Below are positions 10,035-64,000 of a stretch of 64,000 nucleotides of DNA, piece after piece. The notes under the pieces are model-generated. The model was not told where the DNA came from. It saw nothing but the letters and a program-made list of their open reading frames with translations, and did not search any database. This DNA is from Dendrophyllia cribrosa (Eukaryota; Cnidaria; Anthozoa; Scleractinia; Dendrophylliidae), in assembly GCA_024195265.1 (NCBI GenBank), contig JAJLRJ010000013.1, positions 2,861,075 to 2,925,074 of the forward strand, in the 5' to 3' direction. Positions within the stretch are counted from its first letter, which is position 1; the number at the start of each line of letters is the position of its first letter. The translations under genes were made by a program, and so were the position numbers.

Positions 10035-10038
10035 AAGT

Positions 10039-34652: not shown

Positions 34653-35725
34653 ACTTCGCATCTTGCTTTGTTCAACTATAGTTCATCTTCAGCGAATCCT
34701 GAAAGAATCAAATAAAGCAAACGAGAATGTATAAACAGAGGAACCTTACAACGGACAGTTTCTAGTACTAGTGGAACCTCGATTTTACGAAGTGGCATGG
34801 GACTGGGGAAACTGGTTCGTTATATCGAGGGTTCGTTACATCGTAAACTTCGTTATAACGAATTTGCGGAAAAACAACCAAAATGTTCGTAAGATAGAGG
34901 TATAATTAATAATTGTTTTGTAACGGTATTACGTTTTTCCGGATCTTAACAAATAACATTTGCACTTTAATGCCTGTATGAATCGAAGCCACAGTACACT
35001 GCAAATATAACTACGGCACTGGAAAACTGTTCACGTTATACCTTTTCCCAATAGCACAGACTGTTGGTCTGTTCCGCATTCATCTTTTGACGCGCGTTGA
35101 CGTTAAGGTAGTAGATCTGCTATAAACATGTCCATTTGAAAGAATTATTTCTTAAATGTCAAAGAACATTCCGAAATAAAAATTACATACGCTTATTAAG
35201 CGAGACCTGAACTTTCAGAAAAGTGAAATCCGAGGTGTCAATTTTCACACCTAAGGTGTGAATTCCAATTTACATCGCAGGCTCAGAAAAACAAGGATTG
35301 CAGATTTCTAGCTTTTCCTTGATAGTTACGAATAAAAAATAGATTGGAACCGATTCATACTTAGAATGTTTAGTTACCTTTTTTTCCCGGGATTTGACAT
35401 CAATTTATTCTTGAGATATGGCGGTCTAAATTTTTTGTAATATCCCCTAACTTTAAGCGACCGCCAGAAATTCCAAAATGTTCCCTTAAGTCCCGGGTAT
35501 TGAAGTCGTATTTCCTCAACATTATACAAATAAACCTGGCAAGTTTCAATGAGATATTATAAGTCTTCATCGTTCCACATCAATTTGTTTTCAGTACGAT
35601 CTATCATGGCTACAAAATCGGCTATAATATTCGTCGCGATACGTTCTTTCTTCGTCGCCATATTGAATTCTTACGAGTAAACCGCTGTTCGTATTGTCTG
35701 TTGCGACTTAGACCCGATTAGTATA

Positions 35726-35880
35726 GGTAATCATACGGTTTCGAGTTCAATTTGGGATTAATTTGCACGAGTGAGTTTTTCAAAAAGCTCAAAATTGTAC
35801 GAGCCGATTTGAGCTTTTTAAAAAACTCACAAGTGCAAATTAATCCCAAATTGAACGAGAAAACCGTATGATTACTTATT
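35726..35880. repeat. foldback repeat inside the pogo-like element
   Basis: Arms GGTAATCATACGGTTT and complement, with inner pair TTAATTTGCAC / GTGCAAATTAA and GAGTTTTTCAAAAAGCTC. Followed by A/T homopolymer runs to about 36005 and by unrecognised sequence to 37130 containing a CCAATCAG box and two ATGGCGG-type patches. Confidence 0.6.
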
Positions 35881-37257
35881 AATAATTATACATGAAAAAA
35901 TTTGCATCCATTTTTGTTTGGAAATTTTTTTTTTTTTTTGCAAAAATTTTTTTGGGATTTTTTTTTCTTTTTTTGGCCAAAAAAAAGGAAAAAAAATTTT
36001 TTTTTCGATTTGTAATTTGCACTGGTGTTACACGTTTTGTATTGGTGTTACACTTGAACTGCACTGCTTTTAGCCAATCAGAATCGAGTAAATTTTTCAT
36101 GTATATTATTACAACACGAAAGGCGACGATTCGCGTCGGATTTCCAATATGGCGGCGTAAACAATGACGTCGTTCATAGCAACCAAAAGAAATGCGAGAC
36201 TTCGGTGGATGAGTACAACGGATGTTATGCGTAGTACGCTACTGTGCACGAATGTTCGAGATACCACGCGATCCCACGCGAAAGTGTGTTTGTCGAGCAT
36301 TCTCGGTTTCGAGAAAAAAAATATGGCGGAAGATACGGGAGAAACAACGGCAAGACGGGAGAACGAACGCGCGTAGCTATCTCCAACGAAGAATTAATTG
36401 CCCTCAGGTTGGGAGATTACAAAACTTAGTGAAGGGTTTCGCTTCGTCTGGTCGTCCGAAGAAGTGGCCAAATTCCTCGCGACGAAAAGAACCTCTGCAT
36501 ATAAAATGCTTGAAGGCGCCTTGCTCCGATAAAACTACAAATCGGTTGCCCTTGCCCACTACTTATCCGAATTAAAGTGGGAACAACAAGCGACGGTGCC
36601 TTTAGCTCATCAGAAAAGCGGGTAGCTATTCCGTACAACATGCAGAAAAAGTAAGAAATCTCTTGGAAACCGTCAATATTTCCCATCGCATAAGTTAGGC
36701 TTATTTGTGTTACTGCTAATTGTGCTTCCTTGATTAATTTGTAAAGATAGCTTTTAAGCACTTCACGTCGATTTCAATTCATATAATTGCATTGAGAATT
36801 TCATAGAGTGGTTAGAATATGAAAATTGCACTGCGAGTTCTCGTGTGAAATATACAACTCTTACACGTGGCTGTTGCGCTTGTTGTTCTAAATACGCATG
36901 CGTCAACTCGAAGAATCCAACATGGCGTCCCAAAATGGCGACCTTCGCAACGGAATTTCGGCCGTAGATATCTCTGCTTATAGTTGAAAATAAGCCGTAA
37001 TATTTTGGATTTATGTACTACTTAACATAAACTTTTAATTTATTAAACTTTTGGATATGGTTTATTTTTGACCGTATAGCAGTTCCACTACCTTAAATCG
37101 TTATATCGGGGTAATTTTACGTTTGGGCTGCCGGATTGTGTTCGTTATAACGAGGATTTCGTTGTATCGAGGTTCTGTTCCATACATTTTACTTGTAATT
37201 TTGCCAGGCTGAAGAATATCGTTCGTTATACCGAGGACTTCGTTATATAGAGGTTCG

Positions 37258-38564
37258 TTAAAAGCCCATCTGCACTTACCGTGATGCACCGCGCATTGTT
37301 TATTTTGATTTGGACCCAGATAAATGCGATCTCTCGCGAAGTGAAATTTTTGCCTCTCATCTCCAGGAAGAAATGAACACTGAGTTTGAAATTTCGTTCG
37401 ACATTAATTTTAAAATTTATAAGTCTTAAGAAGCGGTCCTGTTAGATATCAAAAGCCCGTATAACATGTCTCGCATTTTGTCTGGGCCGCTCAACCCGCC
37501 TTTAATAATGTAGCTCCAGGCAACTCCAGTCGCCAAGGCAGTTTCCTCCGCTTCGAAAGTTCGCATCGAAAACATTTTCACGTTGTGGGACGCGGTAAAC
37601 CTTCTGCTATTTTTACCGAAAGTTTAAGGTCGATGCCGCTTAAAACGAAACCTCCAGCGAGCCGAGAAGTGTTTGTATTTTTTGGGCTGTTCTCCAGTCG
37701 GCGTATCTGATTTACATGAGGCATAATTAATGAGCTCCGCTGGCGGAGGAAGTTTTATCGGCTTCAGAAGTTTGCATCGAAAAAAAATCGACGGCTAGGG
37801 ATGGGGAAAACCTCCTTCAACTTCCATGGAATATTTCACATAGTTGCTGGAAAACACGACTCCGCCGGCTAGCCGAGAAGTTTAAGCTTTTTTGTTGTTG
37901 ACATCTCCAGGTTCCGGTCGAACGGTCACGGTTATCGATGGAAAGATTCAAATGTCAACTCACAGTATCTGGAAAACGAATGCACCACTTTCATAATGGC
38001 GGCCGATTTATTTATTCTTTTATATGTATGTTAATTAGCCTCACCGGCCTCGTTGGCGTGTGCAAAATTCAAAAGAATTTTTACTCTAAAACGAGGCCGG
38101 TGAGGCTAATTAACATACATATAAAAGAATAAATAAATCGGCCGCCATTATGAAAGTGGTGTATGTACTAAAAAATTACAGTGAAAAGATTTGAAGATAA
38201 ATCTTAACTAGTAGGCAATCTAATATACCTATTTCCTTTCCACGGACGACCGAATTTCTGAGCCAAACCTTCTGAAGGTTCTCGTTTCTTGACAGCCGGC
38301 CTCGAGCCTTCGGCGGCGTTGCTTAGAAAACGTATCAGTAACGATGGAAAATAAAAGAAAACAGACAAAAACAAGATGCAATGACTTGAATATGAACTAA
38401 ATATTTGAAAGAAATGATCTTGAAGTTAATAGACGATACAGATTCACCGATGTAAACGAGTTGTTTTAGGAATCAAACTTCACCGGCACAAAACTAGAAT
38501 TTCTGGGGCCACGAAATTCTAGAACGCCCGCAATGAATCACGGTAAGTGCGGATGGGCCTTTAA
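37258..38564. mobile_element. 1.3-kb TTAA-flanked element nested in the right terminus of the pogo-like element
   Basis: TTAA at 37258-37261 and 38561-38564; inverted ends AAGCCCATCTGCACTTACC / GGTAAGTGCGGATGGGCC. Joining the flanks across one TTAA gives GAGGTTCGTTAAATCGAAG, the expected continuous pogo-like terminus, so the nesting is well supported. Contains a large foldback at 37981-38163. No protein recognised. Confidence 0.75.
37981..38163. repeat. foldback repeat with ~70-bp arms
   Basis: Arms CACCACTTTCATAATGGCGG...GGCCTCGTT and complement, near-identical, separated by about 35 bp. Confidence 0.75.
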
Positions 38565-38659
38565 ATCGAAGTTCCACTGTACTGACAGTTTTCAAGATGC
38601 TATTCACTGCTTTTGTGGCTTAGTGAACTATATGATAAACAACCGCGTATGTGCGCTAC

Positions 38660-38685
38660 AGTGATGATGATGATGATGGTGATGG

Positions 38686-38716
<31 letters not shown>

Positions 38717-38885
38717 GATGATGATGGTGATGACGATGATGGTGATGATGATGATGATGGTGATGGTGATGATGATGGTGATGATGATGATGAGGATGAT
38801 GATGAGGATGATGATGACGATGATGATGATGATGGTGATGATGATGATGATGATGATGATGAGGATGATGATGATGAACGGGCAC
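38660..38885. repeat. GAT/GGT trinucleotide microsatellite
   Basis: About 220 bp of (GAT)n interrupted by GGT and GAC; open in all frames as poly-Met, poly-Asp or (minus) poly-His. The matching place in copy B (60582-60640) has a pure, shorter array. Confidence 0.92.
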
Positions 38886-39109
38886 AGAAATAACCAAAGA
38901 GTTATGTTTTTAAATATATTCCTCCCGTAATTTCTGATTTCCGAGACGCACTCATATCCCTCGTATGCGCACGTCGCAATATCGCGCCTGAAGTTCCTCT
39001 TGTGCCAAAAATATAGGCTAAGTTAAATGAGTTAAGTAAAACAATCCTTGAATTATTTAAAAACCTAAAAATAAGCAATTCCTAAAAGTGCTCTTGGAAG
39101 GGAAAAGTT

Positions 39110-39437
39110 TCACCCTTTCACTCCTGGAGTCAATTATGTCAGTTATGTCAATCATGTCAATTATTTTAATTATATCAATCATGTCAATTATGTTGATTAT
39201 ATCAATTATGTCGATTATGTCAATTATGTCAGTTATGTTAATTATGTCAATTATGTCCATTACTTCAGTTTTATTTAAGTCTGTGGATTAAATCCTATGG
39301 CGTGACCATTCAAATGAAACTTCTCTCACTGGCAGTACTATTACATGGTACCATTTGTTTTTTTAATATTTTACAAAATAAAATTTGGATTTTTCTTGAA
39401 TTTTTACTTTTGGCACTCTAAGAGTTAAAGGGTTGAG
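39110..39437. repeat. TTAACCC-type element with one 88-bp unit and a 9-bp minisatellite
   Basis: Starts CACCCTTTCACTCCTGGAG, contains an ATGTCAATT-type 9-bp tandem (39136-39265), one unit with ATCCTATGGCGTGACC, and ends GGCACTCTAAGAGTTAAAGGG. It is the reverse orientation of the intron-3 element of PUM3. The copy B equivalent is at 61470-61725. Confidence 0.7.
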
Positions 39438-39462
39438 AGTTGGAAAACGTCTTTCACCTTAC

Positions 39463-39565
39463 CTCTTAATTACACAACAGACAGCTATTACTAACATGAT
39501 AAACCCAAGGCACACCAGACCAACAGCCACAGACAGCAGGATAATAATCGCCTTGCGTTCAGTTT
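39463..39565 (-). CDS. transmembrane exon of mucin-like copy A
   Basis: 103 nt with acceptor CAG and donor GTAAGG on the minus strand; with one carried base it encodes ETERKAIIILLSVAVGLVC and continues GFIMLVIAVCCVIK, a clear single membrane helix flanked by charged residues. It differs from the copy B exon by few, mostly conservative changes (A/V, I/V, M/V types). Confidence 0.8.
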
Positions 39566-39774
39566 CTGAAATGAACAAATAAGAATCAGTTTATATATGG
39601 TAGCTATCCGACCATTTCACCTATACACTCAAGTGTCGGACCAGGGCAGAAGCTCGGAGGACCCACTCTCCCACCCCTATTTTGCCAAACAATCAGGCCC
39701 CAAGGGCCGAAAAAATGTTTCAGTTTGCAACATCACTCTACCTCCTCCCCTCTCCCAGGAGAAGTGTCCTTTTT

Positions 39775-40400
39775 AATGGAGGTGTCTCTTTAATAGAGGT
39801 GATAATAACAAAGATTATATGAGCGTATTGCCGGCCGGGACCAGGAGAAGTGTCCCTTTTATAGAGGTGTAATTACAAAGATTGTATGAGCGTTTTGCCG
39901 ACCGGGACCAGGAGAAGTGTCTCCTTAATGGAGGTGTCCCTTTAATAGAGGTGATAATCACAAAGGTGATTGTTTTGCCGGCCGGGACCAGGCGAAGTGT
40001 CTCCTTAATGGAGGTGTCCCTTTAATAGAGGTGATAATAACAAAGGTGAGTGTTTTGCCTGCCTGGAGCAGGCGAAGTGTCTCCTTAATGGAGGTGTCCC
40101 TTTAATAGAAGTGATAATCACAAAGGTGAGTGTTTTGCCGGCCGGGAGCAGGCGAAGTGTCTCCTTCATGGAGGTGTCCCTTTAATAGAAGTGATAATCA
40201 CAAAGGTGAGTGTTTTGCCGGCCGGGAGCAGGCGAAGTGTCTCCTTAATGGAGGTGTCCCTTTAATAGAGGTGATAATCACAAAGGTGAGTGTTTTGCAG
40301 GCCGGGACCCGGAGAAGAGTACCTTTAATAGAGATGATAATCACAAAGGTGAGTGTTTTTCCGGCCGGGACCAGGAGAAGCGTCTCCTTAATGCAAGTGT
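39775..40400. repeat. ~81-bp minisatellite in intron 2 of mucin-like copy A
   Basis: About seven units with GTGTTTTGCCGGCCGGGAC and GTCCCTTTAATAGAGGTG; period about 81 bp (40048, 40128, 40209). The same intron of copy B has an independent expansion with an 86-bp period. Small open frames across it are shadows. Confidence 0.85.
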
Positions 40401-40474
40401 CCCAAAGTAGGGGTTCCATTGAATGATGCAAAAATTCACCAACGAGCAACATAGAAGAATGACAAAATACGTAC

Positions 40475-43400
40475 CATCGATGTTGACACTGATGGTGGCA
40501 ATGATGTTGACACTGATGATGACACCGATGTTGACACTGATGATGACACCGATGTTGACACTGATGGTGGCAATGATGTTGACACTGATGATGACACCGA
40601 TGTTGACACTGACTCTGACACTGATGGTGACACTGACGGTGAAATTGACTGTGACACTGACGTTGACAATGATAGTGACACTGATGGGGGCACTGACTGT
40701 GACATCGATGTGGAAAATGATAGTGACATAGATGCTGACACCGATGGTGGCACTGACTGTGACATCGATGTTGACGGCACTGATGGTGACATTGACATTG
40801 ACTTCGGTGGTGGCATTGACTGTGACATCGATAGTGACACTGATGGTGAAATTGATGTTGTCACTGATGGTGGCAATGATGTTGACACTGATGATGACAC
40901 CGATGTTGAAACTGATGATGACATTGATGTTGACACTTATGGTGACACTGACTCTGCCATCGATGTTGACACTGATGGTGGCAATGATGTTGACACTGAT
41001 GATGACACCGATGTTGACACTGACTCTGACACTAATGTTGAAACTGATGGTGAAATTGACTGTGACACTGACGTCGACAATGATAGTGACACTGATGGTG
41101 GCACTGATTGTGACATCGATGTGGAAAATGATAGTGACATAGATACTGACACCGATGGTGGCACTGACTGTGACATCGATGTTGACGGCACTGATGGTGA
41201 CATTGACATTGACTTCGGTGGTGGCATTGACTGTGACATCGATAGTGACACTGATGGTGATATTGATGTTGACATTGATGGTAGCACTGATGTTGATACT
41301 GATGGTGACATTGACTGTGACACCGATGTTGACACTGATGGTGATACTAACTCTGACAGCGATGTTGACACTGATGGTGACATTGATGTTGACACTGATG
41401 GTGACCCTGACTTTGACATCGATGTTGACAATGATGGTGACGAGGAAAGTGACATTGATGTTGACACTGATGGTGACATTGATGTTGACACTGATGGTGG
41501 TACTGATGTTGACCCTGACTTTGACGTCAATGTTGACACTGATGGTGACATTAATGTTGACACCGATGGTGGCACTGACAGTGACATCAGTATTGACACT
41601 GATGGGAACCCTGACGTTGACACAGCTGGTGACCTTGACTGTGACATCGATGACACTGATGGTGATGATACTGGCACTGATGTTGACACTGATGGTGACA
41701 TTGACTGTGACACTGATGTTGACACTGATAGTGGCACTGACAGTGCCATCAGTGTTGACACTGATGGTGATGTTGATGTTGACACAGATGGTGACCTTGA
41801 CTGTGACATCGATGTTGACACTGGTGCCAATGATGCTGTCACTGATGGAGATGATGATGCTGGCACTAATGTTGACACTGATGGTGACATTGACTGTGAC
41901 ACTGATATTGACACTGATGGTAGCACTGAAACTGACACTGATGTTGACACTGATAGCGACACTGACTTTGACATTGATCTTGACACTGATGGTGACCTTA
42001 ATTGTGACTCTAATGTTGACACTGATGAAGACATTGACTGTGACATCGATGTTGATACTGATGGTGACATTGATGTTGACTTTGATGGTGGCACTGACTG
42101 TGACATCGATGTTGACACTGATGATAAAATTGATGTTGACACTGATAGGGGCAGTAACAGTGACATAGATGTTGAAACTGATGGTATTGCTGATGTTGAC
42201 GCAAATGGTGACATTGACTGTGACATCGATGTTGACACAGATGGTGACAGTGATGTTGACACTGATGGTGCCACCGATGTTGATACTGACTGTGACATCG
42301 ATGTTGACACTGATGGTGACAATGATGATGACACCGATGGTGACACTGATGTTGACACCGATGGTAACATTGATGTTGACACTAATGGTGACACTGACTC
42401 TGACACCGATGGTGGCACTGATGTTGACACTGATGGTAACATTGATGTTGACACTAATGGTGACACTGACTCTGACACCGATGTTGACACTGATGGTGAA
42501 ATTGACAGTGAAGCCGATGCTGATGTTGACACTGATGGTGACAATGATGTTGACACTAACAATGATGTTGATAGTGATGGTGGCACTGACTGTGACACCG
42601 ATGTTGACACTGATGGTGAGATTGATGTTTGTGATGATGGTGACATTGGTGACAGTGATGATGGTGACATTGACTGTGACATCGATAGCAACACTGATGG
42701 TGATATGGTGGTTGACACCGATGGTGGCACTGACTGTGACATCGATGTTGACACTGATGGTGACAATGATGTTGACACTGGTGGTGGCACTGATGTTAAC
42801 ACTGATGGTGACATTGATGTTGATACTGATGGTGACACTGACTCTGACACCGATGTTGACACTGATAGTGACGTTGACTGTGAAACTGATGGCACTGACT
42901 GTGATGCCAATCTTGACACTGAAGGTGACATTGACTTTGAAACTGATGTTGAGACGGAAGGTGACATTGACTGTGACATCCATGTTGACACTGATGCTGA
43001 CAGTGATGGTGACATTGATGTTGACAAAGATGGTGACGTTGACTGTGAAGCAGATGCTGATGTTGACACTGATGTTGACACTGACGGTGGTACTGACTGT
43101 GTCATCGATGTTGACACTGATGGTGCCAATGATGCTGACACTGATGGTGATGATGATGCTGGCACTGATGTTGACACTGATGGTGACATTGACTGTGACA
43201 CTGATGTTGACAATGATATCGACACTGACTTTGACACTGATCTAGACACTGATGGTGATCTTAACTGTGACTCTGATGTTGACACTAATGGTGACATTGA
43301 CTGTGACATCGATGTTGACACTGATGATGGCATTGATGTTGACTTTGTTGGTGGCACTGACTGTGAAATCGATGTTGACACCGATTGTAAAATTGATGTT

Positions 43401-45177
43401 GACACTGATGGGGGCAGTGACAGTGACATCGATGTTGACACTGATGGTAATGCTGATGTCGAAACAAATGGTGACATTGACTCGGACATCAATGTTGACA
43501 CTGATGGTGACAATGATGATGACACTGATGGTGACAATGATGTTGACACTGATGGTGGTACTGATGTTGACACTGACTGTGACATCGATGTTGACAATGA
43601 TGGTGACAATGATGTTGACACTGGTGGTGGCACTGATGTTGACACTGATGGTGACATTGATGTTGATACTGATGGTGACACTGACTCTGACACCGATGTT
43701 GACACTGATAGTGACGTTGACTGTGAAACTGATGGCACTGACTGTGATGCCAATCTTGACACTGAAGGTGACATTGACTTTGAAACTGATGTTGAGACTG
43801 AAGGTGACATTGACTGTGACATCCATGTTGACACTGATGCTGACAGTGATGGTGACATTGATGTTGACAAAGATGGTGACGTTGACTGTGAAGCAGATGC
43901 TGATGTTGACACTGATGTTGACAATGATGTTGACACTGACGGTGGTACTGACTGTGTCATCGATGTTGACACTGATGGTGCCAATGATGCTGACACTGAT
44001 GGTGATGATGATGCTGGCACTGATGTTGACACTGATGGTGACATTGACTGTGACACTGATGTTGACAATGATATCGACACTGACTTTGACACTGATCTAG
44101 ACACTGATGGTGACCTTCACTGTGACTCTGATGTTGACACTAATGGTGACATTGACTGTGACATCGATGTTGACAGTGATGATGGCATTGATGTTGACTT
44201 TGTTGGTGGCACTGACTGTGAAATCGATGTTGACACTGATTGTAAAATTGATGTTGACACTGATGGGGGCAGTGACAGTGACATCGATGTTGACACTGAT
44301 GGTAATGCTGATGTTGAAACAAATGGCGACATTGACTCGGACATCAATGTTGACACTGATGGTGACAATGATGATGACACTGATGGTGACAATGATGTTG
44401 ACACTGATGGTGGTACTGATGTTGACACTGACTGTGACATCGATGTTGACAATGATGGTGACAATGATGTTGACACTGGTGGTGGCACTGTTGTAGACAC
44501 TGATGGTGACATTGATGTTGACACTGATGGTGACACTGACTCTGACACCGATGTTGACACTGATGGTGATGTTGACTGTGAAACTGATGATGACACAGAT
44601 TGTGATGCCAATCTTGACACTGATGGTGACATTGACTGTGACATCGATGTTGACACTGATGCTGACAGTGATAGTGACATTGATGTTGACAAAGATGGTG
44701 ACGTTGACTATGAAGCATATGCTGATGTTGACACTGATGGTGAAAATGATGTTGACACTGATGGTGGCACTGACTGTGTCATCGATGTTGTTACTGATGG
44801 TGACATTGATGTTGACTTCAATGGTGGCACTGACTGTAACATCGATGTTGACACTGATGGTGACATTGATGTTGATGCCAATGGTGAAGTTGACTGTGAC
44901 ATCGATGTTGACACTGATGGTGACAATGATGTTGACATTAATTGTGATGTTGACATTGATAGTGACACTGACTGTGACACCGATGTTGACATTGATGTTG
45001 ACACTGATGGTGGCACTGACTGTGACATCAATGTTGACACTGATGGTAACATTGATGTTGACACCGATGGTGACATTGACTGTGACATTGATGTTGACAT
45101 TCATAGTGACATTGAATGCGAAGCAGATGCCGAATTCGACATAGAAGTTGACATTGATGCTGAAATCGACATTGAGC
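40475..45177 (-). pseudogene. giant Ser-X repeat exon of mucin-like copy A
   Basis: 4,703 nt. In the splice-defined frame it reads almost entirely as Ser at every second position with Met, Val, Thr, Pro, Gln or Leu between (SVSTSMSPSVSTS-type). Basic period 6 bp with 18- and 54-bp blocks; a higher-order unit of about 843-855 bp is repeated (anchors at 42761, 43604, 44459). Four stops and a length that is not a multiple of three mark it as broken relative to copy B. The plus strand is open for about 1,581 codons (40455-45200) as Asp-rich repeats, and a third frame reads as Asn/Ile/Val/Thr. Confidence 0.7.
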
Positions 45178-45873
45178 CTAAATTAAAAAGACAAAAATAA
45201 TGATTTACTGTTAGACTTAAACTAAATCTTTTATATCCTTTAAAGTCGTTTCGCTTTATATTAAACTTATGTTCGTTTACTGATTTACGTGTATATAAAT
45301 CCCACTTAAGAATTATGAAGTGGCAAACCTCTCCTTTAAGAATGGTTTTGCAAAATGTTTGTTATAGTTTTCCGTTTAAGTTCCAGAATTAAATTGACAA
45401 ACTACGCGCTAAGAGCTTTAGCCAATCAGTATAAACGCGCTGATTTTTCAACCAATCAGACGCAAAATCAAAACTAATCGTCAATTTTGTTAAGCGTGTT
45501 TTTCCCGCGCATGAGACCGATTGCACGTCGTGGCTTCGAGTTCCTTTTGGATCATTCGCTCGTATCACGGTTTCTCAAAAAATCAATTTCTTTACAAAAT
45601 GGACGTCTCGACCATAATAATAATAATAATAATAATAATATCAACAATAAGTGAATATTTTGTCAGGATAACCCATCAGTGCAAAAACTAAGCATTGTTA
45701 TCAATGGGATCCTGTTACAATAAAAATAATAAAAATGAAATATTTAACCTAAAAATATAGTATGTACAGAGGTAATCTCAAAAGTAAAGTATAAGATAGT
45801 TAGGTTACATAAAACAATCGTTCAAATGTTGCTTAACTCTCGGTCGTACAAGGGAGGGGGGTGTGGATGCCCT

Positions 45874-45895
45874 CCCCCCCCCCCCCCCCCCCCCC
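45874..45895. repeat. 22-nt C homopolymer
   Basis: Pure C run within a G/C-rich patch (GGGAGGGGGGTGTGG just before it). Confidence 0.9.
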
Positions 45896-46718
45896 ACTAC
45901 CGTTCCCTTAAGGTTTTTCTCGGATTCTTAAGAGCATTTATTGTTGGCACATGTCGTTTTCGGTAGCTGTTCAATTATCCTTTTGACACATTTTGGTAAA
46001 GTTTGGCGACAACTGGTTGCTATTGTAACAAGATATGACGTCATAAGCAGCATGAGGTCAAAATACGTATAAAATCCTACCCAAAGCAGCAAAATGTTTG
46101 GTTGTATCATATTTTACAACTCTAGCAAAAATATTTGCAATTGGCTCATTTTTCCGATAACGTTGATTATTTAGTATAATAATAAAAATAATAATAATAA
46201 TTCAGATATGCATGTTTAATAGCCACATTTATTTGAAGTTTGTCCCCTTTGAATGGATTTATATTGCGCAGTCTTCATGAGTTTATGATCGACTGCGCAT
46301 TACATCGAGTTAATAAAAATAAAAATCTATACAAGGTATAACTAATTCTAAGTGATAATAATTAGAAAAAAAAATCCAAGATGGCGGCCATATTGTCGGC
46401 CGTTTTGGATGACGTCACGGACCCCAGCAGCGATACAACCCATAATATTTACCTTATCTTGTAGAGCACATCACAAGCTATCTATTGGATGTAAAATATT
46501 TTCGAAATTTTGTAACACCGCAAAAACTCAAGGGGGGGTTGTATTATAATCTGATTTAATCCGAGTGCATTTTTCATGATACGTAATATTTTCATAATTA
46601 CATAGCTGAGATTTCATGTGTATCGATATGTCTAGTATCTATATTTTCTTGCCACTTAATTTATCACACGAAATGAAACGTGCTTTCTTTTTTCCAGTTC
46701 TGACGAGTTTAGCGTCCT

Positions 46719-52260: not shown

Positions 52261-52702
52261 GAAGAAGTCAATTAATTATGAATGCCTGTGACAGACAGAC
52301 TATATATATATATATATACTAGTAGGTGAACTACTCATCGATCTTGAGTGGATGGACGTTTAATACAGAACTGTTTCGTAGGCCACCGAAGAGGTGACCC
52401 ACTCCTCAGTTAAACTCCATTTTACACTGAACCGTTAAGTCTACATCAACAGTATTATTGCGTGATGAAAGCGGTTTAAATAAGCACGTGATGGAAACGG
52501 TTTCAATGGTTGAAATAATAACGGTTAGAACAATATGCTCGCGTGATGATATGGGCAGCGCGCGCGCTTTCAAAACCTAAGTCACACTAAGTGCTCGCGC
52601 TAAATTTACAAAATTGGATATGCGCTACGTTGAACTGTACCTTAGAATGAACTTCCGCCGGTGCCTACATGTCGAAATTAGCTCATTGCGCCTGTTTAGC
52701 GT

Positions 52703-52706
<4 letters not shown>

Positions 52707-52749
<43 letters not shown>

Positions 52750-52871
52750 CATATTGCTTCGCTCACTGCTCGCAGTTTGAGCACTCTCGTGACTCCACAA
52801 TGCAATCCAACAATGTGTAACCGTACATCCTGTGCCCAAGTTCAGGACCGGGAGGGCACATTGTATACATA

Positions 52872-52924
<53 letters not shown>
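52707..52924. repeat. two (AT)n microsatellites
   Basis: About 40 bp (52707-52746) and about 48 bp (52876-52924) of AT repeats around 130 bp of unique-looking sequence; a shorter one lies at 52302-52320. Confidence 0.92.
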
Positions 52925-52928
<4 letters not shown>

Positions 52929-53861
52929 AACGTAAAATGTTTAATTGGCACGGCTTTTTAATTTATTTAACTCCTTCGAGATCTTCTCGCACGTTCGTTC
53001 GCTCTCGCGTTCTATGTTTCGTCTTCCGCTCAACTATCTTGAGAAAAAGATCATCGTTAACTAAATGAAACGAAGAAAGTTTGAAAATGGGTACTGATCC
53101 AGGAAAATTGTGACCATGAGTCAGCGTACTATGAGTCAGCGTCTGTCTTGTCACTGTTCGTGTTTGCAGTGGTTGTGTATATGTTGTAACTCGTGTACAA
53201 ACTGAATTTAAGTGCCTTCCAATAGTGTGCCATCTATACCTAAAATGCTTGCGACGGGATATGATTCTGCGGTTCTTTTTTGCCTTTCTTCTTTCTTTCT
53301 TTCTTCTACAGTCTTTCGTGATTGTGATATCACAAACCGCGTAAGTACCTTTTATAGCGTGATCTCAGTGTACACATCATACAAAAAGTCCCGGCAAGGA
53401 CTACATTTGACCCCCCAAGAAGTAGAACGTCAGCAAATCACAATGCGGACTCCGGAAACATGTTCCTTCTGTTTCTTGCACTGGTACTAAATTTAACATC
53501 AGTTAAAGAAACTTTTAAGATAATTTTTTTATTTAAAAGATTTCAACATGTCGAGTTGTTACAAAGTCATATTTCCGTGTCTCCGTTATCTCATATATCT
53601 TCGCAATTCGCCAGTAACAATATCATAACATTTTGAAACAACTTATTTAAAACCGCATTTTAACGCAACTATTTCGTTAGAGTTACTCTTTAAGGCTTCA
53701 ATACAATACAATATATTTTATTTAAACACGATAAAAATTAAAGCTGACGCTTGTGGGGTCGTGTTACAAAAATTGAATATTAAAAAGCTAATTTACATAT
53801 ACTAAAAATACTTTTAAAATAACTTATATACATAATAAATACATAATAACTCGGTTTCCTA

Positions 53862-54590
53862 CTAATATACATAAAAATCATCCCCAATGTGTTTCATGGT
53901 CTGAGGGGATTCAATATTAAAATCAAAATTTTTCAGTGTCCTAGAATTTTTCACTTTCTTCAAATAAACATGTTTGCTGTTTACGTCGTTAAAATAAGGC
54001 GTTAAAGCGTTCCATAAAAAAGAGCCTCTGTGTGAGATGGAATTTTTCAATATATAACTATTAAAACGTGGAACTGTTACTGACTTATGGCTGCCTCGTA
54101 AGTTATAACTCATAGACAGTTTGGCACTGATATTTGCTATGCACGGTGGAGTAACGTCAGTGACTATGTTATATATTAAACCAGCCAACTTAAACTTGTA
54201 TACTTTAAAAAGAGAGACCCGCTTCGCCTTTTCAAGGACTTCTACTTTTGGCTTTTCACGAGAAGATGAAGATGAAGATGAAGATGAAGATGAAGATGAA
54301 GATGAAGATGATCCTAGCAGCTGTACAATGTAGTGACTCTAAGGACCTAAAGCCCTCGTAGTTAGTGCATCCTCCCCAGATAGATGTATAGCATACGTGA
54401 TAGATGGTAATATAATTTTAAAGTACAAGTCTAAAAGCATGTTACGAGGGAGAAAACTACTACATTTTATAAGACTCAATTTGTTCACAAATCCTTTCTT
54501 TAGTTTTGCCTCGACCAAAACCGTGCGGTTATGTAAGATATAATAGCCTAAAAAAAGATCCTTTCCTTGTAATACCAATACTCTCGGCAT
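53862..54590 (-). pseudogene. non-LTR retrotransposon (LINE) RT C-terminal remnant
   Basis: Minus-strand frames read as the C-terminal third of a LINE reverse-transcriptase ORF: FVNKLSLIKCSSFLPRN and LYFKIILPSITYAI (54590-54339), then a (GATGAA)n microsatellite encoding poly-Ser, then VEVLEKAKRVSLFKVYKFK and SHKSVTVPRFNSYI...GSFLWNALTPYF (to 53862). Interrupted by stops. Its minus-strand end is followed at lower coordinates by AT-rich tail sequence. Confidence 0.7.
54264..54310. repeat. (GATGAA)n microsatellite
   Basis: About eight 6-bp units expanded inside the LINE remnant. Confidence 0.9.
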
Positions 54591-54688
54591 GCGATTTGGA
54601 ATAAAACATTCCTTCGAGTCGTTTTGAGGGCAAAAGCTCGGATTCAGTTCCTGACTGAAGGCAAAAAATAAAAAGTCGGGCTACTTAC

Positions 54689-54767
54689 TTGATTGGCTGA
54701 CCGCCTTTCTAACCAGAAACAAAACTGTGAAGATTAAAGCCATAATCACCGGCTTGTTGGAAGACAT
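54689..54767 (-). CDS. signal-peptide exon of mucin-like copy A
   Basis: ATG at 54767-54765; encodes MSSNKPVIMALIFTVLFLV followed by RKAVSQS, an N-terminal hydrophobic segment with a plausible cleavage site near AVS/Q. The donor is GTAAGTAG. It ends in phase 1, which fits the Ser frame of the repeat exon (A+GC). Assignment to this gene is inferred from strand, phase and the absence of another gene in between; intermediate exons are possible. Confidence 0.6.
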
Positions 54768-55325
54768 GTTTGGTCGATCCACTCTGAACTATGAACGCTG
54801 TTAAGCGGATCCGCTACTCTGATGTGAACCACACTTGGAGTAATTAACTGACTGGCAGCTGAGGTATACGAGCGCCGCAATATTGTGTTGCTTAGGGCTA
54901 ATATTGGGTTAATATGATTTCCGGAAGACTGAGCTCTGAATCTCGCTTTTAAAAACTGGGAGATATAACCCGACAAATCCGTAAACGAACAAGGAACTGC
55001 TTGAAAAAGGATGACTCGATGGCAATATACTTTTAGTTTATTCAAGAACTTCTAATGCGTGCTGTAGCGGAGCGTTGTAACTGGTAATAAATAACTGATA
55101 AAGACGTTTTATCTGAATAGTTTTCTTTGTTGTTAATTAAACTTTTCACGAGAGACCAAGATACAGTTTAAAACTTAAAAATATTTATATATGTATCTAC
55201 ATAAAGCCGGCCTACTTCCTGAGAGTTTCAATAATATGTTTTTAATGATAAACCATGTGCATTCTTATGACACTAGAAGTTCGGGGCTCTTTTACTTACC
55301 TTACTGCAGAACAAATATAAGAAAG

Positions 55326-55437
55326 TTTTCGATGTTTCCAAGGTCCTAAATTCTTTAATTCTCTTAGCTTTGAAATTCAAAATGCTACAAGCATCGCCTC
55401 TTTTACCTCTAAACTGAAAGCATTCCTCTTATCGTAA
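55326..55437 (+). pseudogene. LINE ORF C-terminal remnant
   Basis: Short plus-strand frame reading FRCFQGPKFFNSLSFEI then SFTSKLKAFLLS and stop, the typical end of CR1/L2-like reverse-transcriptase ORFs in which (G)PKLWNSL...FK..LK.FLL precedes the stop. AT-rich 3' sequence follows. Confidence 0.55.
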
Positions 55438-55997
55438 ACATTTTTTTGCCTTTGCCTTTTCTTTCCACTTTGCGTTTTTAGCCTAACTATGCTTAAAACA
55501 AATATATAATATATAATAAATGTTTATTGTTAGTAGCTTTGCCATTGATCTGACGTTATATTTTTTTAACTAGGAGTTTCAATGTGAAAGTGAGTGCTGA
55601 CGTTGGAACGGGAACAAATTATTAGTTATAAGATATATAAGATATAAAATGAAATTATATGGGTTATAACCTCACGAGAAATGAAAGTGCATAAGGGGTA
55701 GACATCAGACTTTCGTTGAGGCAAAATATTCGACCGCGAAGTCAAAATTTTCCTTCCCTGTTGAATTAAAATACTGGTTCTGAGTTAAATTTTTTTTTTT
55801 TATCCTTTGTGGAGGCAAAGGAAAAGTATAAGCTTACTGAGTCCATTAACACAATACTGTTCCCGTACGTTTAAGCGCTTACGCTCGCCAAAAAGTAATC
55901 TTAAAATAGTTGGCGCGTCCAAATAAATACCACAGCAGGTTGGACTGATCTTCATCGAAAAAACATCTTCTTGCGCCATGTAGACCAAGAGATATAA

Positions 55998-56592
55998 TGG
56001 CCGTTTACACGGCAAAAAAATCGGGTACGGATTCGTCAAAAAAGTGGTACGGACCGCATAATTTTAGCCGTTTACACGGATAATGTTCTACTACAGGTGG
56101 GACAAAAAAAGGCCTAAGGATCAAGTTTGGAAGGTTGCGTTTACACTACACTTGTTGGGGAGACCGGACCAATAGACCATTTTCGATATATTAAAATTCA
56201 TACTTGGCTCCGAGGCTTGGGGGAATAAAACAAAAGAAATGAATTATTCAACGCTGAACCTCAATGTGATTTCTTTTGTTTTATTCCCACAAGCCTCGGA
56301 GCCAAGTATGAATTTTAATATATCGAAAATGGTCTATTTCTAGTACTGCGCATACGATCAGCGAAGTTATTATGCAAGCTGACGTAACAAATGAAGAAAC
56401 TGGTCCGGACCCGTGTTTTTTCAGGTTTTGGGGCCATATAGACGTCTATGGCCCCAAAACCTGAAAAAACACGGGTACGTACCAATCCCAAAAGACCGTC
56501 ATGGTACGTATAGTTTACACGGGTGAAAATGTGAGGTCCGTACTCCTTTCTTGACGGGTCCGTACCCATTTTTTTCTGTCGTGTAAAAGGCC
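55998..56592. mobile_element. ~595-bp element with two nested palindromes
   Basis: Inverted ends TGGCCGTTTACACGGC and complement near 56580. Inside: a foldback at 56170-56339 (arms AATAGACCATTTTCGATATA and complement) and a perfect palindrome at 56408-56478 (ACCCGTGTTTTTTCAGG outward). Missing from the first block copy, so it is a later insertion. Confidence 0.7.
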
Positions 56593-57069
56593 TTTACTTA
56601 CGCTTTGAACAAGCGGCGAGATCAAGTTACTTTCGTCCCACTAGGTGACCGATTACGCGTCGCTGAAATCTTTAAAATTTCGCTCGTCAAAAAATAATCT
56701 TAAAATAGTTGACGCTTCGAAATAAATACTTTTACGATTTGGACCTTTAACGAAACAACATTTTGCCGTTTTAAGCGCTTTCTGGTGCCCTGTAGAACCA
56801 GAGATAAACAATTTATTGACATCACTACGAGCGGCGGGATCAAGTTTATTATTTTCGTTCTGTGGTAATATTTACATTTGTGAGCGGTCAGCTCAGAACA
56901 CTACTTTACGAAGCGAACACAAGTTTCGTGAAAGGAAATATGTTTAAAAGATTTTCTTTCGCTTTTCAAGTTAATTATCTTGAAAGAAAGCGACTTTCAT
57001 ATATAAATATCCTGCCTTCCTCGCTAGAAATCAACTCGAAAGATAATTTACCCGAACTCTGTAAGATCT

Positions 57070-57214
57070 GGCCCCGGTTGTTCAAAAGGTGGATAACGCT
57101 ATCCACCGGATAAATCATTATCGAGTGGATAGGCATTAGCAAAACCAATTGTGTTATCCACTGGATAGTGATTTATCCGGTGGATAGCGCTATCCACCTT
57201 TTGAACAACCGGGC
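57070..57214. mobile_element. 145-bp MITE
   Basis: Long inverted arms GGTTGTTCAAAAGGTGGATA and complement, with GCTATCCACCGGATAAATC inside; short unpaired centre. Compact, non-coding, few mismatches. Confidence 0.82.
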
Positions 57215-58958
57215 CCTGATATCTGTTTTCACGTGCAATTTTACTTGATGTCATCGCAGGCGTGGATACCCCGAATGGCGTGGATACCCCGGATAATTAA
57301 AAAACCAATCGACTGCGCATGCTTGTGATCTTACATCCGACAAAATTTTGGATTTTTCCCGCTGCCTCGCTGAGGATAATATATTGAGGGAGCCTATTTA
57401 TTTGTAAGCTCAGTGGTTACTTTTGGGCTTCATTGCTATACTATCCCTGACCATGTACTTGTTGTGGTTGACACGGGTGTACGGGATTTCCTTATTGTAA
57501 GGGGGGACTTTGTACCGCTTCTGTAAACAAGGAAATGAAGATGACACTCAACTTTTCTTACTAACACTTTGCAAACCAAGAAATCATTATTGCTCTAGCG
57601 AAAACCTAAACATATTGGTCCAGGTTTGATAAAAGTCTAGTGCACTGAAACTGGCCACAGATGACCAGAATGGAACTGGATTGCAACTTGGAAGTTTTGA
57701 AATTCAGGATTCTTCTTCTTCAGTTTTCAATTCTGGGCTTTCCTCTTGGCTCGCTTTACTCCTGACCTTTCTTTTTACCCTATCCCCAACCAGGAGATAG
57801 GGTAAATTCATTATTTCGAATGGGGCTACCGTTGGAAGACTCCAATAATCAATTTAAAACCTGAATTTTGAATTCAATAATGTAATCTGTTTCCGATTAA
57901 CGAAAGTCATTCCCAAATAAAAGTGGAACGTGCTGAGTTTTTTTACTGTAATGAATCAATCAACGACACTAGTACTCCTTAAGTTGTACATGTAAGAGGG
58001 CTGTACATGCTCACCAATTATATTCACTTCCCAAGCAACAGCTTTTGATCCACAAAGATCAGCTCACAGTGCACACACCGAAGTAACGCAACACTATTTT
58101 ACATCCCTGAAAAGTACCGTGGGCTACCCCACAGGTCATGTGTTACAGAGGGGGTAAGCTGCTGACCACAACTGGCTCGAGTTTATCCCTGCCAAAGTTT
58201 ACTTTTTTGTCTTAAAATCATTATTATTTTAGTCAGTGGATAGCTTGCCTGGTCCTTGCAGGCAAGTAAGCAAGAAAAGTCACTTTCTCACAGGAAAATC
58301 TACTTGTCCTATAAGACTGGACTGGACTTTTTTTCAAGCTCTGTGTCGTACGTACCACTGGGATCTATAAGTGTAAACACCCAGTGCCAAATATCCCATA
58401 TACTACAAACAAACAAACAAACTGTCAAACGCCTCGTGCGTTTATTTCCCTTGCGCACGAGATGGTCGCTCCCCTGTCAACCGCCAACGGTAGGATAACG
58501 CGTCAGTGGAAATTTGACTTTCACCGTCAAAATGTTAACTTTTGTTCTATCAGCTGTAAGAGATGCCCCTTGAGACCTTTGTATTAAAGGATACACATTT
58601 TAAATTATTTTTTATTCATCACTCACATTACATCTACAAATCATTATAAAAAGACGGTTGTTGTTACAACACGTAATTGTTCAGTTTATTGCACAATTAA
58701 TGCAACAACGTCGATCGTGATAAATTTGAAAAAATGCGACAGCCATTACTACACAATATCTCAGATTCAATAATGCTGTGTTAACATCAGCACCATAACA
58801 TGTTCAGAGTACTGAACATTTCAGTGAAACACGTTTGCGATTTGATTGTTCATATTAGTTGTTTATTTCGAAACTCGTTTCACGGTTCACTGGTTCGATA
58901 ATACTGTTTTGCGAAGCAGGTATAAGCTCGCATAAAATCTTTATAATTACACTTGAAC

Positions 58959-59414
58959 TTAAAGGGGCTATGTCGCGAGGATGGCGGGTGAGTACTGGGT
59001 ACTAACAACTTGAAAAACGACGTTCGGTGGCTTTTTATCAAGTTGGCGGCCATTACTGTCGAATTCGCTGCAATCCGTTTCATCCCGTCGTATTGCGTGG
59101 AAGGATAGATCTCAAGTTTACAAATTAGTTAGAGTATTTACTTGGCTAGATTTTTGGTAAATTATTTCTGCGATTTGTTAGTCGTACCTACGAAAAATTC
59201 GATGTCTTCCAGTAGTGGTGGAAGTTGGGGAGAAATTTAAAAGCGAAATCGATCGTGTGTTTGTTTACCTCACGTGGTTCGACATGAGTGCAAGCGCGAT
59301 GAAACTTGCCGCGATCCGGGAGGGAACAATAGATATTTGACATGTGTGACGTCAGGTGACGTCACATGACAGGAACTCATTGCGCAGACTCACCTTGCGA
59401 CATAGCCCCTTTAA
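58959..59414. mobile_element. 456-bp TTAA-flanked foldback element (copy B only)
   Basis: TTAA at 58959-58962 and 59411-59414; inverted ends AAAGGGGCTATGTCGC / GCGACATAGCCCCTTT. Copy A has GAACTGAAACAAATAGAGC at the corresponding point without the element. Contains TGACGTCAGGTGACGTCAC. Non-coding. Confidence 0.8.
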
Positions 59415-60328
59415 AAAAATAGAGCTCTAACTTGCTGTTGCATGATTTTGTATTTTGTCACTTTCAAGCTCTTAGGGAACGAAGGGTGATGCAGTGTTAA
59501 ACAAGAAGACGGCATTTGCGCTAATGTGTTTCGTCTGGCTTAGATCGAAACAACCTCGAGAGATGGTTTCAATCAGGCTCAGAATAAACATGTTTTGATC
59601 ATGATTCGCTCAATGCGTCGCCTGATGTGAACACTTTTCATCATAAAACATGTTTTATTGGTGATCAGACTAAACATGTTTCGCTCAAGTGTGAACACAG
59701 CATTAGATCTCAATAACTCCTAGCCTTCAAAACCCGAACTTCACATTCGCTAATAGTCTCCTACGTAGCCGTTATTTGGGTCGTCGAGGGAGCGTAACTA
59801 CCCAAAAAAACGCAATAAAAGCAAAAAGTAGAAACCTTTGAATGCAAAGGTCCACAAAACGTGTAAATAAAACGCACTGGTTCGGTTTTGCTGGATCTCT
59901 AATGGAGAGATGCTAGAGCCAGACCGTCACTTGAAGTGTGATAAGACCGTGACAAACTGAACGCAAGGCGGAAGGCACTACGGCAATGGGCGGATTCATT
60001 TAACGGCCAAAAAATAGTAAAAACAAATTAATTTTACCCATTTCACTTGATACAATTCAACTATCGACAACGGCACTTCGTTTTCACCCGGGAGGAGGAG
60101 GAGGGGGGAGGTTGTTGTTTCAGTCAGTTCCCCTAGGATAATTACATAGTCATTATTGAGATTTTTACACCTTCCTAATTCTGTGATAAAAAAGCGACGT
60201 TCAATAAACAAAGAATAATGTTCCTTCGCTGCTTGCTGAGTAAAAAGACTAATGTTGTTATAGTCATTTTTGTTACTGCTCTTGTCAGTTAAACTTCGCA
60301 TCTTGCTTTGTTCTCCTACAGTTCATCT

Positions 60329-60582
60329 TCAGTAACTCCTGAAAGAAACACAAATAAAGCAAACTAGAATGTAAAAACACAGGAACCTTCTTACAACGGA
60401 AATTTTCTAGTACTGACAGTGTTTTCAAGATGCTATTCACTGCTTTTGTAGCTTAGTGAACTATATGATAAACGATCGCTCATGCGCGCTTCACGGTGAT
60501 GAGGGAGGAGGGAGGGCCATTATGAAAACTACTGGGTGGCCAGTAATTAATGTACTCCACCCTCGATAAATAAAGTTATATT

Positions 60583-60642
<60 letters not shown>

Positions 60643-61114
60643 GGGCACAAAAATTACCAAAGAGTTATTTTTTTTAAATATATTTCTCCGACTTATCTTA
60701 ATGAATATTTTATAAGAAACAGCACTGTTCATTCTTATAACACTAGACGAAAAACTGATCTGTATCCAGCTAAACCGAAACTTAACTTGGGAAAGAGGAG
60801 CTTCAGATATTCGGGATCCACTCTTTTCAATTCTCTTCTGACAGAAATTAAAACTGTTAGCTCACTAGATGTCTTCAGAAATTACATAACAAAATTATTG
60901 GAGTTTTTAACTATGATACTTCAGATTACAATTAGTTTTCCTATTTATCACTTGTAATGTTTTTTATTGTAAATTAGAATTTTTAGTATGTAGTTTGTAA
61001 TTAATTAAATGTTTTACTGTAATTTAAATTTTTAATGTAATGTATTTTTTATTAGATGCAGGGTCCCTATGAATACCAGTCTTGAGCTGAAAGGGCCACC
61101 ATGATTAAAAGTTT

Positions 61115-61151
<37 letters not shown>

Positions 61152-63955
61152 GTAATTTCTGATTTCCGAGACGCACGCATATCCCTCGTGTACGCATGTC
61201 GCAACATCGCGCCTAAAGTTCCTATTGTGCCAAATATACAGGCTAAGTTAAATTGGCTAAGTAAAAAAATCCTTGAATGATTTAATAACCTAAAAATAAG
61301 CAATTCTTTGCTCTTTTAAACGAAAATGTTAGAGTGACCGTGAAACAGTTACTAAGTTAGTAGGCACTAGTTAAGACACTTTAAATTCCATTGTTTTCTT
61401 TTGTTTAGTTTTAGCTAATTTTGGCCAACTTTCATTAATTGCTAGATACTGTTTCACGGTCTTACGAAAATCACTCCAACCTTTTCACTCCTAGTTCTAA
61501 CTTTTTTAATTTTGTCTGGACAAAATCCTATGATGTGACCATTCAAATGAAACCTCTTTTGCAGTACTTTTGCATGGTACCATTTGTTCAAACTTTTGAG
61601 TCTGTGGATGAAATCCTTTGGTGTGACCATCCAAAATTTGTTTTTCAATATTTTACAAAATTAAAAGAAATTTGGATTTTTCTTGAATTTTGACTTTTGG
61701 CACTATGCTCTTGAGAGGGTTAAGAGATATCGAGTTGGAAAACGTCTTTCACCTTACCTCTTAATTACACAACAGACAGCTATCACTAACATGATAAACC
61801 CAAGGCACATCAGACCAATAGCCACAGACAGTAGGATAATAATCGCCTTGCGTTCAGTTTCTGAAATGAACAAATAAGAATCAATTTATATATGGCGGCT
61901 ATCCGACCATTTCACCAATACACTCAAGTGGCGGACCAGGGGAGGGGTCCGGATGACCCACTCGCACCCACCCCCCTCCTCACAGTTTTGCCAAAAAGTA
62001 AGGCCCCAGGGGCCGAAAAAATGTTTCAGTCTGTAACATTTTCACTCTGCCTCCTCCCCTCCTCCCCCCTCCTCCCCTCCCCCCTCCCCCCTCCCCCCTC
62101 CTCCCCTCCCCCCTCCTTCCCTCCCCCCCTCCTTCCCTCCCCCCCCCAGTAGTAGTTTCCCTCTTAATGGAGGTGTCCCTTTAATAGAAGTGATAATTTT
62201 AAAGATTTTATGAGTGTTTTGCCGGCTGGGACCAGGAGAAGTGTTCTCTTAATAGAGGTGCCCTTTAATAGAGGTGATAATTACAAAGGTTTTATGAGCG
62301 TTTTGCCGGCTGGGACCAGGAGAAGTGTCCCCTTAATAGAGGTGCCCTTTAATAGAGGTGATAATTACAAAGATTTTATGAGCGTTTTGCCGGCCGGGAC
62401 CAGAAGAAGCGTCTTTCTTAATGGAGGTGTCCCTTTAATAGAGGTGATAATTACAAAGATTTTATGAGCGTTTTGCCGGCCGGGACCAGAAGAAGCGTCT
62501 TTCTTAATGGAGGTGTCCCTTTAATAGAGGTGATAATTACAAAGATTTTATGAGCGTTTTGCCGGCTGGGACCAGGAGAAGCGTCTTTCTTAATGGAGGT
62601 GTCCCTTTAATAGAGGTGATAATTACAAAGGTTTTATGAGCGTTTTGCCGGCCGGGACCAGAAGAAGTGTCTTTCTTAATGGAGGTGTCCCTTTAATAGA
62701 GGTGATAATTACAAAGGTTTTATGAGCGTTTTGCCGGCTGGGACCAGGAGAAGCGTCCCCTTAATAGAGGTGCCCTTTAATAGAGGTGATAATTACAAAG
62801 ATTTTATGAGCGTTTTGCCGGCCGGGACCAGAAGAAGCGTCTTTCTTAATGGAGGTGTCCCTTTAATAGAGGTGATAATTACAAAGGTTTTATGAGCGTG
62901 TTGCCGGCTGGGACCAGAAGAAGCGTCTTTCTTAATGGAGGTGTCCCTTTAATAGAGGTGATAATTACAAAGGTTTTATGAGCGTGTTGCCGGCCGGGAC
63001 CAGAAGAAGCGTCTTTCTTAATGGAGGTGCATGTCCCAAAGTAGGAGGTTCCACTGTATAATATAAAAATTCACCAACGAGCAACATAGAAGAATGACAA
63101 AATACGTACCAAGATTTCCCCCCGTTTGGTTTGTACCAGTACCATCATTCGGGCTTACAGAAGACGTCATCATTGATGTTAGCTGAGTCAATGACGGTGA
63201 TATGGACTGTGAAACAGATAGTACCATGGAAGGTGACATCGATGGCACTGGCACTTGTGTTGACACGGATGTTGACACTGATGGTGGCACTGACTGCGAC
63301 ACCGATGTTGATGGTGACATTGATGTTGACACTGATGGTGGCATTGACTGCGACATCGATGTTGATGGTGACATTGATGTTGACACTGGTGGTGGCATTG
63401 ACTGCGACATCGATGTTGATGGTGACATTGATGTTGACACTGATGGTGGCATTGACTGCGACATCGATGTTGATGGTGACATTGATGTTGACACTGATGG
63501 TGGCATTGACTGCGACATCGATGTTGATGGTGACATTGATGTTGACACTGATGGTGGCATTGACTGCGACATCGATGTTGATGGTGACATTGATGTTGAC
63601 ACTGATGGTGGCATTGACTGCGACATCGATGTTGATGGTGGCATTGATGTTGACACTGATGGTGGCATTGACTGCGACATCGATGTTGATGGTGACATTG
63701 ATGCTGACACTGATGGTGGCATTGACTGCGACATCGATGTTGATGCTGACACTGATGGTGGCATTGACTGCGACATCGATGTTGATGGTGACATTGATGT
63801 TGACACTGATGGTGACACTGATGGTGACATTGATGTTGACACTGTTGTTGACACTGAGTGTGACATTGATGGTGACACTGATGGTGACATCGACTGTGAA
63901 GCAGATGCAGAATCCGACATCGAAGTTGACATCGATGCCGACATCGTCATTGAGC
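60329..63955 (-). CDS. mucin-like single-pass membrane protein, copy B (5' end outside window)
   Basis: Visible exons on the minus strand: repeat exon 63955-63110, TM exon 61860-61758, tail exon 60338-60329. Acceptors follow strong pyrimidine tracts, donors are GTACGT and GTAAGG, and phases close (2 nt in, 281 codons, 1 nt out; 103 nt; then stop). The repeat exon encodes Ser/Met/Pro/Thr/Val repeats, mainly an 18-residue (54-bp) unit such as SMSQSMPPSVSTSMSPST, about nine copies. A non-repeated juxtamembrane stretch ends NDGTGTNQTGGNL. Then ETERKAIIILLSVAIGLMC...VIAVCCVIK (membrane helix), RSY and stop, so the cytoplasmic tail is only a few residues. The signal-peptide exon is expected beyond 64,000. 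Role unknown; a Ser/Thr/Pro-rich ectodomain suggests O-glycosylation. No Cys-rich or enzymatic domain is present. Confidence 0.75.
60582..60640. repeat. (GAT)n microsatellite in copy B
   Basis: About 19 pure GAT units, the counterpart of the longer, interrupted array at 38660-38885. Confidence 0.92.
60691..61152 (+). mobile_element. LINE 3' fragment with (ACT)n tail (copy B only)
   Basis: Encodes a LINE RT C-terminus in the plus frame (VHSYNTRRKTDLYPAK, GKRSFRYSGSTLFNSLLTEI, SSLDVFRNYI), then an AT-rich 3' UTR with GCAGGGTCCCTATGAATACC and an ACT microsatellite tail. Copy A reads directly from AAATATATTCCTCCC into GTAATTTCTGATTTCC (38915-38940), so the fragment was probably inserted in copy B. 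Confidence 0.72.
61470..61725. repeat. TTAACCC-type element with two 88-bp units in copy B
   Basis: Starts CCTTTTCACTCCTAG, has two units with AAATCCT(A/T)(T/G)G(A/G)TGTGACC, and ends CTTGAGAGGGTTAAG. Same family as PUM3 intron 3 (13 units) and 39110-39437 (one unit). Confidence 0.7.
62040..62150. repeat. CT-rich simple repeat
   Basis: CCTCCCCTCC-type low-complexity run, ending in a C run; it precedes the 86-bp minisatellite. Confidence 0.85.
62155..63020. repeat. ~86-bp minisatellite in intron of mucin-like copy B
   Basis: About ten units with GAGCGTTTTGCCGGC(C/T)GGGAC and TAATAGAGGTGATAATTAC; period 86 bp (62382, 62468). Homologous in position and unit core to the 81-bp array of copy A, but expanded separately. 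Confidence 0.87.
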
Positions 63956-64000
63956 CTAAATTACAAAGACAAATAATGATTTACTGTTAGACTTAAACGA

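Follow-up and report, generated by a model that had tools for sequence, protein, structure and literature searches.

A coral gene family with Ser-X repeat arrays of very different length and a predicted membrane anchor, including one probably decaying copy

Two kinds of described proteins come closest to the genes considered here. Membrane mucins, such as MUC1, MUC17, and the mucin1-like protein of Actinia tenebrosa, combine a signal peptide, Ser/Thr/Pro-rich tandem repeats, and a single membrane span; for the A. tenebrosa protein, the passages of PMC9080433 that deal with it list a signal peptide, regions rich in Pro, Thr, and Ser, a SEA domain, and a transmembrane (TM) segment. The H-fibroin of caddisfly silk contains (SX)4 motifs, each shortly followed by Pro, and the sections of PMC12976744 and PMC4929942 on this silk describe the Ser-X pattern as Ca2+-bridged and phosphorylated, the latter on about 60% of H-chain Ser. 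Here, we analyzed a 64,000-nucleotide stretch of the Dendrophyllia cribrosa genome (assembly GCA_024195265.1, contig JAJLRJ010000013.1, C5:2861075-2925074; hereafter the window) and searched the corresponding 627-Mb genome of 22 contigs. The window contains two genes, A and B, which on sequence grounds belong to a family of five or more loci in the genome. The encoded chain has Ser at every second residue and is flanked by a predicted signal peptide, whose exon is seen in A and B, and a predicted membrane span. It is likely, though by no means certain, to act as an O-glycosylated, mucin-like spacer.

A and B follow a common plan on the minus strand, which consists of a signal-peptide-like exon, a single Ser-X repeat exon, a 103-bp TM-like exon, and a tail of three residues (Table 1). 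An earlier note on this DNA had already described them as two paralogous minus-strand genes of one architecture, B with compatible phases and A with a broken frame, and re-deriving the exons and phases of both copies by script from the sequence led to the same result. Both repeat exons are preceded by a TTTAG acceptor and followed by a GTACGT donor. The signal exon of B, for which the note had pointed beyond position 64,000, indeed lies there, at C5:2928981-2929059 (window-equivalent 67907-67985), and its peptide is identical to that of A at 22 of 26 residues. Copy B is intact, as its own four exons joined together encode 345 residues followed by a stop. The Ser frame of A contains exactly four stops (45101-45103, 44708-44710, 44117-44119, and 40937-40939), and its repeat exon leaves in phase 0, whereas the TM exon requires phase 1. 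In an alignment of the two copies, the last approximately 30 residues of B's exon, which lie next to the membrane, are missing from A, and this absence accounts for the wrong exit phase.

Table 1. Features of copies A and B and of the overlapping plus-strand frame, in window positions.
Feature	Position	Strand	Length	Description
A signal-peptide-like exon	54689..54767	-	79 bp	MSSNKPVIMALIFTVLFLVRKAVSQS; donor GTAAGT; ends in phase 1
A Ser-X repeat exon	40475..45177	-	4703 bp	four in-frame stops; phase 0 exit; without the conserved membrane-adjacent segment
A TM-like exon	39463..39565	-	103 bp	
A tail	34689..34698	-		R-I-R and stop
B Ser-X repeat exon	63110..63955	-	846 bp	open; 54-bp units, then conserved segment SISPSLTQLTSMMTSSVSPNDGTGTNQTGGNL
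B TM-like exon	61758..61860	-	103 bp	
B tail	60329..60338	-		R-S-Y and stop
Satellite in A	39755..40403	.		CCTTTAATAGAGGTG units; intron directly 3' of the A repeat exon
Satellite in B	62162..63029	.		same satellite as in A; B intron
Open Asp-X frame	40455..45200	+	1581 codons	antisense to the A Ser frame, wobble position facing wobble position

The note's view of A and B as a tandem pair holds in that both sit in a tandem segmental duplication, whose matching stretches outside the arrays are 75-93% alike, but the two do not stand alone, as three further family loci are present in the genome. A search with the TM exon added L3 (C5:5581636-5581740, minus strand) and L4 (C5:5464525-5464629, plus strand). 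In both, the TM exon is preceded by a 114-bp exon that reads NS[I/M]SQSISPSSTQPTSPMSSSVSP..., has phase 1 at both ends, and encodes 38 residues. The TM exon of L3 measures 103 bp if the donor at the matching place is used, and a tail candidate resembling that of A lies downstream; in L4, the open frame runs 21 residues past the TM exon. The third locus, C4, lies on another contig. Its repeat exon (8116437-8118185), with 1749 bp and phase 1 at either end, encodes 583 residues without a stop, and the TM exon downstream of it (8114676-8114778) is hydrophobic, exactly 103 bp long, and shares the phases and the AG/GTAAG donor of the other copies. The membrane-proximal segment occurs at four places in the genome (L3, L4, B, and C4), each time in an open frame, and a query with the C4 version returns the same four. 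Across the five loci, exon 2 thus measures 114, 114, 846, 1749, and 4703 bp. The TM exon is present at all of them, and the Ser frame is open in B, C4, L3, and L4 and broken in A. Judged by sequence alone, a signal-peptide-like exon is found in A and B and a hydrophobic exon in all five loci. A satellite of the CCCTTAATAGAGGTG type, in a 17-bp version (L034:210-1096), also follows the C4 repeat exon on its 3' side, at the same intron place as in A and B.

Other sequences resemble parts of the family. The TM exon also weakly matches C4:19746563-19746661 (E 1.39, 39% identity), which is possibly a further relative or due to chance. The Ser-X arrays match at least 16 other places in the genome at E ≤ 0.001 (150 of 7314 candidates scored); some of these matches are weak (38-45% identity), and five of the places have stops inside at least one match. 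An open Ser-X array at C12:2244371-2247600, with an open reading frame of 1141 residues, was left out of the family because the membrane-proximal segment was not seen in the 1,200 bases read.

The alternation of Ser in the encoded chains is far above chance. The pattern S-any-S occurs 95 times in B, 244 times in C4, and 564 times in A, compared with shuffle means of 46, 126, and 306 (500 shuffles each), which bears out the note's statement that Ser stands at nearly every second residue in A and B. Ser plus Thr and Pro, respectively, amount to 51.8% and 14.2% in B, 52.0% and 8.9% in C4, 53.8% and 10.7% in A, 44.7% and 10.5% in L3, and 42.1% and 10.5% in L4. All five copies therefore exceed the yardstick that PMC9080433 gives for the central region of mucins, more than 40% Ser plus Thr with Pro at about 5%. 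The ectodomains of all five are free of Cys. The richness in Ser, Thr, and Pro is shared with membrane mucins, as would be the predicted signal peptide and the single predicted membrane span, and points to a likely O-glycosylated spacer. Such a chain would keep a brush of sugars at a distance from the cell surface, and slippage and unequal crossing-over may set the height of this brush through repeat number. Since the repeat exon begins and ends in phase 1 at all four open loci and its length is a multiple of three, gain or loss of repeats would stay in frame. The short tail, with three residues in A and B, probably also in L3, and 21 in L4, suggests that the membrane span serves as a passive anchor. 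Copy A probably outgrew the others, lost the membrane-proximal segment along with the correct exit phase, and gained stops.

The same alternation could instead mark an array that is phosphorylated rather than glycosylated. As a (pSX)n polyanion tethered to a membrane, it would bind Ca2+ and adopt beta-sheets in the manner of the caddisfly H-fibroin D-repeat. The longest perfect (SX)n runs comprise 58 dipeptides in C4, 24 in A, 16 in B, and 5 in L3 and L4, so that runs of the caddisfly type (n of about 4-5) occur in all five copies. The C4 unit SQSLSPSV is an (SX)4 motif in which one X slot holds Pro or Thr, which recalls the (SX)4 motif and Pro of the silk. Set beside the portions of the silk literature that cover the (pSX)4 D-repeat, the family agrees in having Ser at every second residue, X that is often aliphatic or Thr, and regularly spaced Pro. 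It differs in the length of its perfect runs, in its predicted membrane span, which argues against a silk-like polyanion, and in the absence of S-x-E. The latter motif, which abstracts give as the site of the secretory kinase FAM20C and which would seed phosphorylation, occurs 0 times in the ectodomains of A, B, C4, L3, and L4, and Pro at 9-14% should break long strands. We thus consider phosphorylation of the array rather improbable. A more specific version is more doubtful still: the family might be an animal equivalent of underwater silk that is tethered to the membrane, in which a polyphosphorylated (SX)4-Pro ladder would bind seawater Ca2+ to form a reversible mineral-like or adhesive cell-surface layer, with array length as an evolvable dial.

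Whether the arrays are kept for the protein that they encode can be judged from the changes within them. For C4, 542 codons in strict 24-bp register were scored against the consensus. The 175 deviations comprise 85 synonymous and 90 replacement changes and no nonsense change, compared with 52, 104, and 18.5, respectively, expected in the absence of selection. Of the possible deviation types, 16 of 21 synonymous, 23 of 43 replacement, and 0 of 8 nonsense types were seen, and just 16 of the 175 deviations fall on second codon positions. Together, these counts show strong conservation of the Ser frame in C4. A different picture emerges for A when Ser slots, defined as Ser residues with one Ser two codons before and another two codons after them (555 in A, 241 in C4, and 93 in B), are compared. 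Changes at codon positions 1, 2, and 3 of these slots number 45, 46, and 90 in A, 14, 4, and 69 in C4, and 14, 2, and 30 in B. In A, second-base changes of Ser codons are thus far more common than in C4 and B (second versus third position, A versus C4 plus B, Fisher p = 4e-8), which argues that A is decaying. Two of its stops (44117-44119 and 40937-40939) affect a single copy of an internal duplication, with the other copy reading on, and are therefore likely younger than the duplications. Between the copies of the internal duplications of A, 7 of 12, 1 of 3, 9 of 26, and 23 of 63 differences are at the third position, a signal too weak to be of use. A is likely a pseudogene now. The TM exons of A and B differ at 4 of 103 bases, compared with 11 of 95 and 11 of 83 in the introns on either side.

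Decay of one copy is also what would be expected if the arrays represented selfish minisatellite growth in a dispensable gene family, tolerated and with a length that has no function. L3 and L4 manage with a 114-bp exon in place of an array, the units of B are nearly identical and therefore recently copied, and the other Ser-X array matches in the genome, five of them with stops, fit such growth. The conservation of the Ser frame in C4, with no nonsense change and few deviations at second codon positions, speaks for selection on the protein, and we regard selfish growth as unlikely.

Several results weigh against the mucin-like spacer or limit its support. The 345-residue B model has no match to any Pfam family at E ≤ 1 and thus no SEA, EGF, NIDO, AMOP, or VWD domain, which agrees, as far as the Pfam library goes, with the note's statement that the protein could not be assigned to a named family. 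Because B lacks SEA-, EGF-, or VWD-type domains, the family is not filed as a membrane mucin, and it differs from these proteins also in the Ser period of 2, the three-residue tail of A and B, and the Cys-free ectodomain. A genome-wide search at E ≤ 1 with the signal peptide and the repeat start returned A and B only (2 candidates scored) and thus no signal exon for L3, L4, and C4. The TM exon of C4 shares just 32% identity over 34 residues with that of A, and its E value of 1.4e-7 stems from a search, with the low-complexity filter off, of a 1.2-kb piece picked where the exon was expected. Outside the arrays, the ratio of replacement to synonymous substitution rates (dN/dS) is mildly below 1, with values of 0.33-0.87 for TM exon pairs, 0.53-0.95 for the membrane-proximal segment, and 0.6 for the signal exon, all based on few changes. 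The signal exons of A and B differ at 8 of 79 bases and so diverge more than the sequence on either side of them, with 11 of 180 and 4 of 84. The array of B is too uniform to be informative, with 5 deviations in 144 codons, all replacements, and A and B are not told apart by their numbers of replacement and synonymous changes in Ser slots (p = 0.07). Finally, array copies share ancestry, so that the Fisher p and the expected stop counts overstate independence, although the sense in which A deviates is plain.

All of the above relies on the minus strand being the coding one. The plus strand of A contains an open Asp-X frame of 1581 codons, on which the earlier note was silent. Read as a gene, it would make A an acidic protein with Asp at every second residue, which would resemble the acid-rich proteins of coral biomineralization. 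Stops in this frame number 0 in A, 1 in B, and 29 in C4, where an acid-rich protein of this type would thus be interrupted, whereas the Ser frame has none in B and none in 582 codons of C4. Moreover, the Asp-X frame holds one Met among its 1581 residues, and it is the minus strand that carries the signal exon, the splice sites, and the TM exon, with phases that match. In the two frames, third codon positions lie opposite one another, which makes it rather easy for both to stay open at once. Given the 0 versus 29 stops in C4, a mirror effect, not a gene, is the best reading of the 1581-codon frame. A test of strand on A by degenerate codon classes gave four p values, all above 0.6, and did not tell the two frames apart. 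The plus-strand Asp-X gene was rejected on the stops in C4, and we consider it very improbable. A Bactofilin match on the Asp frame was under its Pfam cut-off and was dropped.

The family with Ser-X chains on the minus strand offers a natural length series of one exon in one genome, with 38, 38, 282, and 583 residues and a broken member of more than 1,500, in which the unexpanded state is still present. With this series, one can ask how a coding repeat expands, when selection keeps its frame, when it dies, and whether repeat number can tune a surface brush. It also calls for caution, as even a very long open frame may be an artefact when it lies antisense to a Ser-X array. A sequence search of the PDB with the B model gave 0 matches at E ≤ 1. 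Among the papers listed for such a family, none was recognized as describing it, although its absence from print is not claimed; in PMC6385260, the one "serine-rich" passage concerns another protein.

The rest of the window contains features of other kinds. A frame with reverse transcriptase and GIY-YIG domains lies at 8193-10043 (minus strand) and 9940-10926 (plus strand), part of the same protein being present again, inverted, alongside. The GIY-YIG match is just under its Pfam cut-off, and from the order of its domains we take the element to be Penelope-like. A single open frame of 732 codons at 697-2895 (minus strand) contains a Pfam sulfotransferase domain in its C-terminal half, and Pfam matches also mark an adenylate kinase exon at 15991-16440 (minus strand) and a CPL-domain exon at 28403-28867 (plus strand). 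The window has no Rfam match at gathering score and no tRNA. In the genome as a whole, the GFP family (PF01353) has seven strong and seven weaker matches, all over the cut-off, compared with 0 in 14 control genomes; so many GFP-like genes indicate an anthozoan. Two further arrays are found in the window: an 88-bp satellite at 19859-21009 (13 copies, 98% match) and a G+C-rich array of 20, 40, and 80 bp at 30967-31522, which is open in more than one plus-strand frame.

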